Position numbers and translations under genes: made by a program. The notes beneath the pieces were generated by a model, which was given only the letters and a program-made list of their open reading frames with translations, ran no database searches and was not told the origin of the DNA. From contig JAOHEK010000007.1 in NCBI GenBank assembly GCA_028097405.1, forward strand, positions 1-64,000: 64,000 nt of DNA, in the 5' to 3' direction. Source of the DNA: Paracoccaceae bacterium (lineage in GTDB: Bacteria > Pseudomonadota > Alphaproteobacteria > Rhodobacterales > Rhodobacteraceae). Below are positions 49,134 to 53,197 of the stretch, one piece after another; positions within the stretch are counted from its first letter, which is position 1; each line of letters begins with the position of its first letter.

Positions 49134-49646
49134 TTATGCCCGGAAAGGCTCGATCCGATCTGCGGAGAGGGCATAGGAGATGGCAGCAAGCTGTGTCGAT
49201 GTCGACGAGACGCCAAACATGCCGATGACGTTTACAGGCTCGTATAGGCCCGCGCTCTCGTAAGGGTTTTCGGTCGTGACAAAAACCAACTGGTTCGCAG
49301 GTGGGGGTGGAACGTGCACGCAGGCGCCCGCGAAGGGCACAAGGATAAAAGCGGTGACGCCCGATCCTGAGTAGTCGATTGGGACAATAAACCCGGGCAG
49401 GCGGACGATCTGGCCGTTCCATTCCGAACGGACACCGCTCGAGACTGGCTGTTGGCTGGCCAGTGGGGCATTGTCGTGATCGATCATCAGACTTTGCAGC
49501 GCTTGCGGAATGACAAGCTGCCCTTCCGGCACAAGGTCTTTCCAGTCGAGATCAACATAGTCTTCGGCCCGTGCCAATTGGGGGGCAAGCCCGAAGGCCG
49601 CCATACTGGCCATCAGATTTCGGCGATTGACCGTTGAGGTCACCAT
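49134..49646 (-). CDS. DUF3299 protein, second copy (last gene of zinc-type operon)
   Basis: A 170-residue exported protein. The signal is MVTSTVNRRNLMASMAAFGL ending ARA, with a twin-arginine-like NRRNLM. The shared core is LPGFIVPIDYSGSGVTAF, then GACVHVPPPPANQLVFVTTE. The Cys and His directly before the proline run could bind metal. Start and upstream-paralogue stop overlap by 7 bases. Function is unknown. Both copies lie in the Zur-regulated-looking operon, which suggests a periplasmic metal-trafficking or lipoprotein-like role. Confidence 0.85.
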   Translation of the reverse strand: MVTSTVNRRNLMASMAAFGLAPQLARAEDYVDLDWKDLVPEGQLVIPQALQSLMIDHDNAPLASQQPVSSGVRSEWNGQIVRLPGFIVPIDYSGSGVTAFILVPFAGACVHVPPPPANQLVFVTTENPYESAGLYEPVNVIGMFGVSSTSTQLAAISYALSADRIEPFRA

Positions 49647-50143
49647 GTATAGATTTCCATGTCTTCAGCCGTCAGCGCATAGCCGGTTTCGGCGACTTCG
49701 GTCGATTTGATGTCGTGCTGCATCACGCCTGTCACCCAAACGGCGTCCCAAAGTTTATCACCGGGCCAGGGCGTCTCTGTTGTAACAAAAACCAGCTGAT
49801 TTGGCGGCGGCGGCGGCGTGTGAATGCAGGCGCCAACGTAAGGCACCAGTACAAAGCTGGTTACACCATCGGTCGAAAGATCAATCGGAATGATAAAACC
49901 CGGCATTTTGATAAAGGCGCCAGCAAGAGATGGGTTTAGCTTTTTCGCGTTGGCATCATAGATCGGCCGCCAGATATCATTGGCCTCATCCATTTCACCT
50001 TCGCCGATAATCTCAGCATAGGGCAAACCGGGTGGGATCAAATCTTCCCACGTTATTTCCGTGGGCGTTCTGGCAAATGCGGCTTGCGGTAGTGCCGCGC
50101 TTGCCATTGCGGTGCCGATTAGATGACGACGAGAAAACAACAT
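49640..50143 (-). CDS. DUF3299 protein, first copy
   Basis: A 167-residue paralogue of the next gene. It has a Tat-like signal MLFSRRHLIGTAMASAALPQ ending AFA. The core LPxxIIPIDxSTDGVTSF is followed by GACIHTPPPPPNQLVFVTTE, and there is an ITWEDLIPPG start to the mature part. The two copies share the central block almost residue for residue but differ at both ends, so they have diverged in role. It lies 18 bases after the permease stop. No enzymatic motif is recognised. Confidence 0.87.
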   Translation of the reverse strand: MLFSRRHLIGTAMASAALPQAAFARTPTEITWEDLIPPGLPYAEIIGEGEMDEANDIWRPIYDANAKKLNPSLAGAFIKMPGFIIPIDLSTDGVTSFVLVPYVGACIHTPPPPPNQLVFVTTETPWPGDKLWDAVWVTGVMQHDIKSTEVAETGYALTAEDMEIYTW

Positions 50144-50161: not shown

Positions 50162-51412
50162 TCAGATGCGTACGATCATACCATCTGCAAGCGACATGCG
50201 ATAGGCGCGAACCGCTGGTACCATGCTCACAATCGCGCTAGCAGCGATTACGCCCAACAGAACCCAGACCTCGCGTAAGGTCGGTGGTTCAATCGGCAGC
50301 CAAAGGCCAAAAGCACTGTCTATAAGGGGCTGACCAATAAATAGTGCGACATACAACAGTCCCAAACCAAGGATTGCACCAAGCGCTGCCATCAAAATGG
50401 CCTCTAAGACAAGAAGGCCCAAGATCACGCGCGGTCGCGCACCCATGGCCCTGAAAATCGCCATCTCGCGGCGGCGTTCGTTAAGGCTGGAGAATATCGT
50501 CGCCATCATGCCTATCAGCGCCGTTACGACCACCATCGCGGATACTCCGACAAGGGCGGTTTCCGCTATCCCAACGATTTGCCATAGCTCTTGCAAGGCA
50601 ACGCCGGGCAGGATCGCGAGCAGGGGTTCTTCTGGGTATTCATTGATCGAACGCTGCAAACCAAAGACCTGAAGCCTTCCTTTGACGCCAACAAGGGCGG
50701 CGGTGACGGCTTGCGGCTCCAGTTCCATTTGGCGAAGGACATCAGCGGGCGTTGATTGGCCCGGTATCTGGGCCCCGCTTTGCCAATCCACATGGATCGC
50801 CTCAATGGCCTGCAGGCTGACAATAACGGTGCGATCTACCGGGGTGCCGGTCTTTTCCAGAATGGCCGAGACGCGAAAGGGCTGATCATCATGTTCGGTG
50901 AAGGATGCCAGACCATGGGCCACCACAATCGGATCGCCGACAGTGTACCCAAGTGTGGCGGCGACATCGGCCCCAATGACCGCATCGAACAGGTCGTTCA
51001 TGACCTGACCGTCTTGCAGTGCAAGGGATTGGCCGGACCGATACTTGTAGCGGTCAAAGAACTCGGGCGTTGTCCCCATCACGCGGAACTGGCGATGGCT
51101 GTCGCCCAACGAAACCGGCACGATCCAGTCGACTTCGGGGCGCGCTGCAATGTCTTGATAGCTTTCCCATGTCAGGTTGTTTGTCGCGCTTCCGATCCGA
51201 AAGACGGAATAAAGCAACAATTGTACCGACCCGGAGCGTGCGCCGACGATCAGGTCTGTGCCCGAGATCGTGTCTGCAAAACTGGCCTTGGCCCCGGTCC
51301 GCACTTTTTCGACCCCAAGGAACAATGCCACCGACAGAGCAATCGCAAGGATCGTCATACCGACCGTCAAAGCACGGGCCATCAACGATCCAAAGGCAAG
51401 CCGCAGGATCAT
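50162..51412 (-). CDS. ABC transporter permease, MacB/FtsX-like
   Basis: A 416-residue permease with an N-terminal helix (ALTVGMTILAIALSVALFLG). A large periplasmic domain follows (about 45-270, KASFADTISGTDLIVGARSG). Three C-terminal helices surround the FtsX-type block MATIFSSLNERRREMAIFRA then MGARPRVILGLL. This architecture belongs to mechanotransmitting or lipoprotein-type ABC systems, not to ZnuB-like importers. It overlaps the ATPase by 4 bases. The zinc context is inferred from the operon. Confidence 0.9.
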   Translation of the reverse strand: MILRLAFGSLMARALTVGMTILAIALSVALFLGVEKVRTGAKASFADTISGTDLIVGARSGSVQLLLYSVFRIGSATNNLTWESYQDIAARPEVDWIVPVSLGDSHRQFRVMGTTPEFFDRYKYRSGQSLALQDGQVMNDLFDAVIGADVAATLGYTVGDPIVVAHGLASFTEHDDQPFRVSAILEKTGTPVDRTVIVSLQAIEAIHVDWQSGAQIPGQSTPADVLRQMELEPQAVTAALVGVKGRLQVFGLQRSINEYPEEPLLAILPGVALQELWQIVGIAETALVGVSAMVVVTALIGMMATIFSSLNERRREMAIFRAMGARPRVILGLLVLEAILMAALGAILGLGLLYVALFIGQPLIDSAFGLWLPIEPPTLREVWVLLGVIAASAIVSMVPAVRAYRMSLADGMIVRI

Positions 51413-52137
51413 GTCGCACCTCGCTCGGATGTCGCGATGTCGGCCATGTTGATCACCCGGTCAAACTGGCTGGACAGTCGCGCGTCGTGGCTGACCATCA
51501 ACAGCGTGGTGCCATGGGCGCGCGATTGGGCGAACAGCAGTTCTAGAAACGTCGCTTGTGTGGCGGCATCCAGTGAAGAGGTGGGCTCATCTGCGATGAT
51601 CAACGGCGGTGTTCCGATCAGCGCCCGTGCCGCTGCGACGCGCTGCTGTTGACCGACGCTTAGTGCGCCAGCGCGCGCGGTCATGACGTCGTCGGGCAAA
51701 CCAAGGTGCTGACAAAGGCTCGTTGCCTCAACCTTCAGATCCGCCACGCGCTTGCGGCGTTCGGGTGCGAACTGCAAAGGCAGCAGGATATTGTCATGCA
51801 CACTGGCGAACGGCAGCAGGTTAAACTGTTGGAAAATAAGCCCGATCTGTTCTGCACGAAATCTGTCACGCGTGCCTGCTGACAGCGATGCGATATCCGT
51901 TCCCGCCACAGAAATACGACCGGTTTCTGCAATAATCGTGCCGCAGATCAGCGATAGCAGCGTGGATTTCCCCGACCCGCTTTCGCCAAGTAACAGGACG
52001 GTTTCGGACTTTGCCAAAGACAGGTCCGGGACATTCAACCCAAACGACGCCCGACCCGGCCAGCGGTATCGGACGTCTTTTAGATGCAGAATTGGGTTTG
52101 CTTCGGGCAAGAACCTAGAACGTTTCGCGCAGATCAA
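51409..52137 (-). CDS. ABC transporter ATP-binding protein (LolD/MacB-like)
   Basis: A 242-residue ATPase: Walker A GESGSGKSTLLSLICG, Q-loop FQQFNLLPFASVHDN, signature LSVGQQQRVAAARALIG, Walker B LIIADEPTSSLD. It pairs with the FtsX-like permease downstream. ATG at 52137 is given, which overlaps the DUF2796 gene by 23 bases; a TTG at 52110 (LPEANPILHLKD) would remove the overlap and is an alternative. It is part of the Zur-DUF2796-ABC-DUF3299 operon. Confidence 0.9.
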   Translation of the reverse strand: MICAKRSRFLPEANPILHLKDVRYRWPGRASFGLNVPDLSLAKSETVLLLGESGSGKSTLLSLICGTIIAETGRISVAGTDIASLSAGTRDRFRAEQIGLIFQQFNLLPFASVHDNILLPLQFAPERRKRVADLKVEATSLCQHLGLPDDVMTARAGALSVGQQQRVAAARALIGTPPLIIADEPTSSLDAATQATFLELLFAQSRAHGTTLLMVSHDARLSSQFDRVINMADIATSERGAT

Positions 52138-52732
52138 GCGTGGGCGCTTCGCGTTCGACTTCGAAGGACGTGGCTCCTGTGCCCGAGATCACTTGAACCA
52201 CGACCTCCATTGCATTTGAAAACGTGTCAAAATAGGCGAAGTTGATTTCATTCACCTTCGAGGTGTCAGCGCAGGTCAGTTCATATTGCGCATGAAATTC
52301 GGTGTGCCCAGCCTCGTCCTCATGATCGTCGTGCGCCTCTGCGTGGTCGTCATGGCCGTGTTCGTCCGCATGATCGTCGTGCGTTTCTGCATGGTCGTCA
52401 TGATCACCCACACCTGCGTGGGTTTCATGTTCGACAGAGGCCTGAGTGACACTGCAGCCCGCAGAAACGGGTACCGAAAAGAGGTCTAACGGTTTCGCCA
52501 AAGTCGCGACGGCCTCATCAATAGCAGCGCGATCTTCGACGCTTTTAGCGGCATATTCAAAGCCCACAATGTCGGCGCCGGGCGCTTCTAGTTCCATCGC
52601 GATTTTCGCGCCGTCGAATGCAATGTTCAACTGTCCTACACCATGTTCATGGGCATCAAGTTGACGGGTTTCTTCGGCAATTCCGGGGGTGGCGGCGATC
52701 GCTGCTACGGCGAGAAGGGGTAGGCATTTCAT
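52115..52732 (-). CDS. DUF2796 His-rich periplasmic zinc-binding-type protein
   Basis: A 205-residue exported protein. The signal MKCLPLLAVAAIAATPGIA is followed by the DUF2796 start QLDAHEHGVGQLNIAFDG. Residues 102-147 form a His/Asp/Glu loop with 13 His in repeated DDHAE/DDHE units (HDDHAETHDDHADEHGHDDH). Cys93 and Cys154 may pair. Such loops bind zinc with high capacity. ATG at 52732 has GGAG upstream, 29 bases after the Zur-like gene; a longer upstream frame lacks a signal. It resembles, from memory, ZrgA of Vibrio cholerae. Confidence 0.9.
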   Translation of the reverse strand: MKCLPLLAVAAIAATPGIAEETRQLDAHEHGVGQLNIAFDGAKIAMELEAPGADIVGFEYAAKSVEDRAAIDEAVATLAKPLDLFSVPVSAGCSVTQASVEHETHAGVGDHDDHAETHDDHADEHGHDDHAEAHDDHEDEAGHTEFHAQYELTCADTSKVNEINFAYFDTFSNAMEVVVQVISGTGATSFEVEREAPTLDLRETF

Positions 52733-52761: not shown

Positions 52762-53148
52762 TTAATTTGAACAGCCGTCGCAACGACCGTGGATTTCGAC
52801 AATGTGACGGTTAGCAGTGAACGAGGATTGTGCTGAGATAGCAGTGAGTTCTTGCAACAAGCTCGTGCCATCGTGTTCCTCAACTGCTCCGCAATCCTCA
52901 CAGATGGCCAATACTGGAACGGCGGCGTCATGATTGCACCGGCATGGCACAAAAGCCTTGATCGATTCCAGCTTATGGGCACGTCCTTGATCCGTGAGCG
53001 CGGTAAGGGCGCGATACACAGTAGGTGCCGCAAGATCAGGTTCATCGACCTTCATTTGATCCAGAATTGCATATGCCGTCATGGGTTTATCATGTTCATT
53101 AAGAACACCCAGAACATCAGATTGTCGCACTGCGGCTTGTTTACGCAT
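52762..53148 (-). CDS. zur: Fur-family regulator, Zur-like
   Basis: A 128-residue metal-dependent repressor. The N-terminal winged helix includes PTVYRALTALTDQGRAHKLE with ESIKAFVPC, which is typical of Zur (where Fur has other residues). Structural zinc Cys pairs are CEDCG and CDGCS, and the sensor His residues lie in VEEHDG and NRHIVEIHG. ATG at 53148 has GAGGACA upstream. It is the first gene of the zinc-type operon and sits behind a near-perfect palindrome, so autoregulation is expected. Confidence 0.9.
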   Translation of the reverse strand: MRKQAAVRQSDVLGVLNEHDKPMTAYAILDQMKVDEPDLAAPTVYRALTALTDQGRAHKLESIKAFVPCRCNHDAAVPVLAICEDCGAVEEHDGTSLLQELTAISAQSSFTANRHIVEIHGRCDGCSN

Positions 53149-53175: not shown

Positions 53176-53197
53176 TTGTTATTTTATAAAGTAACAA
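53176..53197 (-). promoter_or_regulatory. Zur-box-like palindrome
   Basis: A 22-bp inverted repeat, TTGTTAT on the left, GTAACAA on the right, with an AT core; 20 of 22 positions agree with the reverse complement. It resembles the TGTTATNNTATAACA type of Zur site in Proteobacteria. It lies 27 bases upstream of the regulator's ATG and would let Zur switch off the whole operon at high zinc. Confidence 0.8.

Follow-up and report, generated by a model that had tools for sequence, protein, structure and literature searches.

Two ZrgE (DUF3299) copies with Tat-like leaders and a candidate metal-ligand motif in a zrg zinc-starvation operon of Rhodobacteraceae

Why would a bacterium keep two adjoining copies of a small DUF3299 protein, and what might be the role of the Cys-His and polyproline block that both copies share? 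The question arises from two open reading frames, here called E1 and E2, in the window, that is, the whole stretch of 64,000 nucleotides analysed from contig JAOHEK010000007.1 of a Paracoccaceae bacterium (Table 1). A preliminary description had claimed a tandem pair of DUF3299 paralogues at this place, with a common motif and Tat-like leaders on both proteins. These claims held: the two frames lie exactly where they had been put and overlap by 7 bases, both on the minus strand, which the description had left unstated; they are 39% identical (64 of 164 positions); and both match PF11736 far above its cut-off of 22 bits, E1 with 124.6 bits over model positions 1–138 and E2 with 128.3 bits over positions 1–139, of 139. 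Both also contain the block GAC-x-H-x-PPPP-x-NQLVFVTTE, as described. What that description missed is the setting of the pair, a zrg zinc-starvation operon. The window's assembly, which is 62.6% complete, holds no third DUF3299 match. A phage origin was also considered for the pair and rejected, as neither protein matched PHROGs.

Table 1. Features of the zrg operon in the window (positions in the 64,000-nucleotide stretch)
Feature	Positions	Strand	Evidence or remark
E1, DUF3299 / ZrgE paralogue 1, 167 aa	49640-50143	minus	PF11736, E 3.9e-36
E2, DUF3299 / ZrgE paralogue 2, 170 aa	49134-49646	minus	PF11736, E 2.9e-37
E1 twin-arginine leader SRRHLIGTAMASAALPQAAFA (SRRHLI...AFA)	50069-50143	minus	sequence; 57/57 E1
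E2 twin-arginine leader NRRNLMASMAAFGLAPQLARA (NRRNLM...ARA)	49566-49646	minus	sequence; 49/50 E2
E1 motif GACIHTPPPPPNQLVFVTTE, C106 and H108	49775-49834	minus	sequence; conserved in family
E2 motif GACVHVPPPPANQLVFVTTE, C109 and H111	49269-49328	minus	sequence; conserved in family
MacB-type permease (ZrgB-like)	50162-51412	minus	PF12704 1.3e-15, PF02687 1.2e-14
ABC ATPase of the LolD/FtsE/MacB kind (ZrgC-like)	51409-52137 (start per ORF list)	minus	PF00005 9.6e-30
ZrgA, His-rich zinc uptake protein	52115-52732, ATG at 52732	minus	PF10986 7.7e-49
Fur-family regulator, Zur-like	52762-53148, ATG at 53148	minus	PF01475 2.2e-8
Zur-box-like 20-bp palindrome TGTTACTTTATAAAATAACA	53177-53196	minus	28 bases upstream of the zur-like ATG

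The order of transcription on the minus strand is zur-like gene, zrgA, ABC ATPase, MacB-type permease, E1 and E2, so that a ZrgA gene, an ABC ATPase and a permease of the MacB type adjoin the zrgE genes on one strand. The permease consists of MacB_PCD and FtsX domains. ZrgA matches the equivalog model NF047873 with 197.8 bits (cut-off 185), the ATPase matches DevA, FtsE and LolD, each under its NCBIfam cut-off, and the best NCBIfam match of the Fur-family regulator is Zur PRK11639, at 83.4 bits and thus below the 167-bit cut-off. The palindrome ahead of the regulator gene occurs at one place in the window, both strands considered, where 0.01 matches would be expected at up to 3 mismatches. At no more than 2 mismatches, one further place turns up in the assembled genome; a ZnuA gene (PF01297, E 3.1e-53) flanks it on one side. 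Among homologous operons of Rhodobacteraceae, 35 fronts were gathered, 2 of them too short to use, and the palindrome heads 19 of the remaining 33 at up to 3 mismatches, compared with 5 of 330 segments drawn at random from those loci, some of which may overlap the site itself. It is a putative Zur control site of the window operon.

The other flank of the second palindrome site, read from translations only, holds a Fur-family frame followed by znuC and znuB. By this reading, the genome carries a pair of Zur-like Fur-family genes, one at the head of the zrg operon and one next to znuA (genome G000, contig C108, L217), and each has the same kind of palindrome.

Because of these operon families, together with a palindrome whose only other near copy adjoins znuA, the window operon is identified as the zinc-starvation system zrg known from Vibrio and Pseudomonas, and E1 and E2 are almost certainly a duplicated ZrgE, the protein known as PA4066 in P. 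aeruginosa (PDB 4hsp, OB fold). Like ZrgE/PA4066 of the Vibrio zrgABCDE and Pseudomonas PA4063-PA4066 operons, they belong to PF11736 and have the OB fold; they stand last, after MacB-type permease, ATPase and ZrgA, with a Zur-box-like site in front; and 4hsp carries the GACIHVPPPP corresponding to their motif. The match to the 4hsp sequence is strong for both (E1 E 1.7e-24, E2 E 6.1e-27). An AlphaFold2 model of mature E1 is predicted to be an OB fold (pLDDT 90.8) and comes closest in structure to 4hsp (Z 17.8, rmsd 2.5 over 128 residues), with other OB-fold proteins next at Z 8.7 and less; the same fold is therefore likely for E1 by its model and for E2 by sequence alone. A further OB-fold protein, CcmE, is a periplasmic haem chaperone, and its ligand is unlike that proposed below for E1 and E2. 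It is a low-ranking Foldseek match (8ce8_E, E 7e-3) and has another motif; the likeness is an analogy at the level of fold only.

The window operon also departs from its known counterparts. It has two diverged E copies in place of one, twin-arginine leaders on both, and a Zur-like gene at its head, and among the window genes scanned there is no zrgD (DUF2607) of the Vibrio operon, a gene reported to be absent from two Vibrionaceae species as well (PMC9817125). Its permease, with MacB_PCD and FtsX domains and a separate ATPase, is like those of the type VII ABC systems, for which the periplasmic partners of MacAB-TolC, LolCDE-LolA, FtsEX-EnvC and YbbAP-TesA have been described (PMC12646458); its own neighbours, in contrast, are ZrgA and the DUF3299 proteins, and MacA is not among the genes scanned. 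A gene list for Vibrio vulnificus lineage L4 likewise has permease, ATPase, DUF3299 and DUF3299 in a row (PMC12777771). That likeness comes from the gene list and not from sequence, and the listed pair differs in that its genes are larger (705 and 726 bp), amidohydrolase-type genes are near, and ZrgA is absent from the part of the list available.

Published work, as far as the accessible parts of the reports go, connects these operons with zinc limitation. The zrgE gene of V. parahaemolyticus, annotated as DUF3299, was 76-fold up under Zn limitation, and the rest of its operon rose with it (PMC9817125). According to PMC9820375, which cites earlier work, V. cholerae without zrgABCDE fared very slightly worse than V. 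cholerae without zrgABC; the same report states that growth with chelators was unaffected by single zrgE knockouts and that ZrgE could not replace ZrgA. PA4063-PA4066 of P. aeruginosa are Zur-regulated and have been read either as an importer or as an exporter of pyochelin (PMC11481552, PMC8561739, PMC4542158, PMC11761036). For PA4066 itself, a resemblance to the OB fold has already been published (PMC8561739), the protein is possibly tetrameric and a Zn-binding ability is called not evident in the available text of PMC11481552, and the monomer is said to have too few His for Zn in that of PMC4542158.

The P. aeruginosa results suggest one alternative for the window as well, in which the transporter would expel a metallophore and the Cys-His loop would strip or hold the metal-chelator complex. 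When the permease PA4065 is lost from a strain deprived of other zinc uptake, pyochelin and cobalt inside the cells rise (PMC11481552), and the window permease is of the MacB type. On the other hand, none of the nine window genes scanned was recognised as a chelator biosynthesis gene, and the V. cholerae work reads the zrg operon as an importer (PMC9820375). An exporter of this kind is rather improbable here.

The age of the duplication was approached with a collection of 252 unique DUF3299 rows from 215 loci. Of these rows, 157 came from HMM-fetched loci, namely two samples of 248 and 398 genomes and regions picked from their lists; since weak matches were picked on purpose, the shares of locus types are not population frequencies. 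In a FastTree of 248 rows, which gives local supports only and has long branches among distant rows, E1 of the window falls in a clade of 58 rows (support 97) and E2 in a clade of 51 (support 95), 50 of which entered later counts. A recent local duplication was rejected on account of these separate clades. Loci with either copy number 62: 44 have both, 13 have E1 only and 5 have E2 only, and in the pattern-fetched subset both copies occur in 25 of 36. All of the E1-only loci except L059, which is too short, have at least 1.4 kb downstream, so that a neighbouring second copy is truly absent from those 12. The copies differ at 19 positions, each at least 70% constant within its copy and 15 of them before E1 residue 86; an example is D63 of E1 (58 of 58) against Q66 of E2 (50 of 50). 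E1 and E2 are thus two anciently diverged ZrgE copies, and their long joint retention suggests either two jobs or a heteromer. Individual loci have altered first copies: genome G013 has a second zrg operon (L008/L178) whose first DUF3299 copy is split over two frames, and in G200 (L012) it retains GACIH and is shorter downstream of it.

A second trait of the pair is its export signal. Leaders were classed by a crude rule: RR, at most 3 residues, and then at least 11 residues without D, E, K or R. Beyond the near-universal presence in the two clades (Table 1; the 58th E1 row is truncated), such leaders occur in 9 of 40 other homologues from the same bacterial family, Rhodobacteraceae, and in 17 of 100 outside it, many of the latter being MRR-type, strongly hydrophobic and Sec-like on reading. 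ZrgA of the same operons served as a control, and a twin-arginine leader was found in 1 of 36, upstream of the apparent start, with 2 of the 36 segments having no readable leader. The rule is imperfect in both directions: L080, L134 and L148, from outside the family, have RR-class leaders resembling real Tat signals, and at least three rows classed as lacking RR (L078, L182, L211) do carry RR and possibly Tat signals. Exclusivity to Rhodobacteraceae is for this reason not claimed. A Sec signal in homologues had been named beforehand as evidence against Tat export, and outside the clade this largely came true. Tat-like leaders are typical of the Rhodobacteraceae zrg-type proteins, but not of DUF3299 at large, where 78 of the 100 homologues outside the family fell into the class lacking a twin-arginine leader and 5 into the lipobox class. 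The Tat-like leader is therefore characteristic of DUF3299 in these operons, where nearly all members of the two clades have it, while few other homologues do, and its conservation predicts export of E1 and E2 by Tat.

The motif itself is conserved far more widely. A lack of conservation of its Cys and His in the family had been named in advance as refuting the proposed metal-binding or docking site, and no such lack was found in the readable rows. Because a peptide-pattern fetch (PYVGACIH) favours rows with the motif, the counts rest on the HMM-fetched rows, and the pattern-fetched ones, with C-x-H in 95 of 95, were set aside. Three of the 157 HMM-fetched rows lack the motif: they are the C-terminal parts of split or broken copies, and the other part of each was counted. 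In the 154 readable rows the Cys is constant, and a His follows at +2 in 141; in the remaining 13, position +3 holds Cys (8 rows) or His (5 rows), in the pattern C-[APF]-[FY]-[CH], and all of these are distant rows from L141-L151. Among the 141 C-x-H rows, each of the four prolines is kept in 128–141, and Asn and Gln in 139. Such conservation in homologues fetched by HMM rules out a chance motif. An exchange of His for Cys combined with a shift by one residue is a pattern that metal ligands show, though it is not claimed as proof; the Cys and the His or Cys at +2 or +3 are thus candidate metal ligands, an idea strengthened by the comparison. A third ligand was also sought in H57 of E2, which is conserved in 49 of 50 rows within a D-H stretch that several single-copy homologues also have. 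E1 is without it, so that it is not general, and the claim was dropped.

Alternatively, the constant Cys might have a redox role, joining E subunits to each other or pairing with partner proteins in mixed disulfides, with the His tuning the thiol. Only one Cys occurs in the mature part of 54 of 58 E1 and 49 of 50 E2 rows, which rules out an internal disulfide in those rows and would suit a thiol acting between proteins, and C-x-[FY]-C occurs in the 8 distant rows with a second Cys. Yet the other 5 of the 13 have His at +3, the 141 closer rows have it at +2, and a trade of Cys for His is unexpected of a thiol-disulfide motif, which makes a redox role very unlikely.

The reading that we prefer, although tentatively and as something short of probable, is that E1 and E2 are metal hand-off subunits acting between ZrgA and the permease by means of the Cys-His loop. 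Both proteins would fold in the cytoplasm, exit by Tat and assemble into hetero-oligomers in the periplasm. There, projecting Cys-x-His-x-PPPP loops would hold zinc transiently, for example in a Cys2His2 site between two subunits, and zinc would be passed between ZrgA and the periplasmic domain of the permease, with the polyproline and Asn-Gln possibly forming a rigid docking edge. Export by Tat would deliver the lone free Cys in a folded protein, shielded from oxidation or from the wrong metal. The hand-off is supported by the operon and its Zur-box-like site, by the constant Cys with its exchangeable His or Cys, by the single Cys of nearly all mature E1 and E2 chains, by the low confidence of the E1 model at the motif block, as expected for a loop that is ordered by a partner, by the twin arginines of E1 and E2, which ZrgA of the same operons does not have, by the joint presence of both copies in most loci together with their copy-specific fixed residues, and by the induction of zrgE in V. 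parahaemolyticus and the slightly worse effect of losing zrgABCDE (PMC9817125, PMC9820375). It is weakened by the remarks on PA4066 and Zn (PMC11481552, PMC4542158), by the loci with a single copy, in which the pair is evidently not obligatory, by the inability of ZrgE to replace ZrgA (PMC9820375), by the absence of Zur-box-like sites from the amidohydrolase, amidohydrolase-plus-ABC and distant loci scanned, and by the proposal that the P. aeruginosa transporter exports pyochelin and does not import zinc (PMC11481552).

The main rival to metal hand-off is pure docking, in which the Cys-His-polyproline edge would plug into the periplasmic domain of the permease and ZrgE would be a mechanical partner without metal, much like MacA, EnvC or TesA. 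Periplasmic partners do exist in other type VII systems (PMC12646458), Zn binding by PA4066 is called not evident in the text available (PMC11481552), and the lowest confidence in the E1 model falls on the motif block, model residues 81-90 with Cys 82 and His 84 (mean pLDDT 69). No more than 1.5 kb separates DUF3299 from a permease of the window type in 52 of 61 HMM-sample loci, which have short flanks, in 60 of 74 pattern-fetched loci and in 44 of 80 chosen regions. Even among the 11 distant loci (L141-L151), a MacB-type permease overlaps the DUF3299 gene or lies no more than 400 bases away in 9, the type being absent from the stretch examined at L141 and L145. The distant permeases also fit the hand-off, as do the amidohydrolase-linked clade described below and a CobW-like gene recognised by motif at 3 of the 11 (by Pfam, CobW was found in 2 of 65 neighbours scanned). 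The lack of a growth effect of single zrgE deletions (PMC9820375) weakens hand-off and docking alike. Docking alone, in turn, does not predict the exchange of His for Cys with its shift to +3, and it has to account for relatives that keep the motif at loci of another kind. We regard it as a serious but doubtful possibility.

Those relatives make up an amidohydrolase-linked clade (15 rows, 12 genomes, support 99). In 14 of the 15, amidohydrolase and DUF3299 genes lie on one strand and at most 300 bases apart, and in the 15th (L164) the distance is 516 bases. The amidohydrolases have an H-x-H motif and leaders that read as Sec, and a PDB search with one of them gave matches to prolidase and zinc-dependent carboxypeptidase entries. 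An OprB-type porin is also found in many of the operons. The clade keeps the Cys, the His and the prolines, and one of its genomes, G043, which is rated 100% complete and carries the amidohydrolase operon L168, has no match to the window permease. This argues against docking as the sole function, and it departs from the remark that the association of DUF3299 with MacB-like genes is invariable (PMC11481552). Operons of the amidohydrolase-DUF3299 type were seen at L140, L154, L156, L157, L159, L164-L170, L172-L174, L181 and L193 and sometimes include a MacB-type ABC transporter without ZrgA. At three other loci (L061, L083, L202), zrgA is directly followed by DUF3299, and such ABC genes were not found in the stretch examined.

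Metal hand-off could conceivably extend to the whole of DUF3299, which would then be a periplasmic zinc hand-off family serving both transporters and exported zinc amidohydrolases, with a Tat-exported heteromeric pair as its Rhodobacteraceae form; we consider this wider reading unlikely. Its members would share the Cys-[His/Cys] polyproline loop, its customers would be the Zur-controlled type VII ABC transporters (zrg) and the exported enzymes of the amidohydrolase-DUF3299-OprB operons, which can be present where a genome lacks that transporter, and the Rhodobacteraceae pair would be folded, and perhaps metal-loaded, prior to export. A link of the other operons to zinc through Zur was sought with a 15-base form of the site, one mismatch being allowed. 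The zrg loci gave 15 matches in 401 kb (0.2 expected); the amidohydrolase loci (181.5 kb), the ABC-type loci without ZrgA (123.3 kb) and the distant loci (96.7 kb) gave none. The proposed link through Zur was rejected for the amidohydrolase and distant operons on account of this absence, which also weakens the wider reading.

Another protein, of about 350 aa, accompanies some of these genes. It was seen between E1 and E2, between the permease and E, or near them, at 15 listed loci (L005, L010, L015, L025, L029, L043, L047, L069, L070, L073, L078, L095, L175, L176 and L179), of which L005, L043 and L176 are apparently one locus. None of 3 tested had a Pfam family, and 5 of 7 aligned start with C-x-F-H after the leader. 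One was modelled (pLDDT 87.6) as mainly helical, and a fold search with the model gave nothing at E 0.001 or better, armadillo-like repeats topping the list; that other families do not appear in the fold lists is not taken to mean anything. The window's genome gave no match to it, in an assembly that is 62.6% complete and by a search run without a positive control.

Parts of this picture were already known, namely the zrg operon, the ZrgE family and the OB fold of PA4066. The old duplication into E1 and E2, the Tat-like leaders and the amidohydrolase operons would be new: in the open-licence literature, as far as its accessible parts go, the tandem pair of Rhodobacteraceae, its Tat-like leaders and the amidohydrolase operons were not found described. 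For ZrgE, which has a crystal structure and a Zur-controlled operon, the comparison provides a concrete candidate site, the Cys and the His or Cys two to three residues on. Moreover, DUF3299 relatives exist without a MacB-type transporter, adjoining apparently exported enzymes of the zinc type. Finally, the question why a small periplasmic protein should need to fold before its export has a natural experiment in the Tat-like leaders of Rhodobacteraceae.
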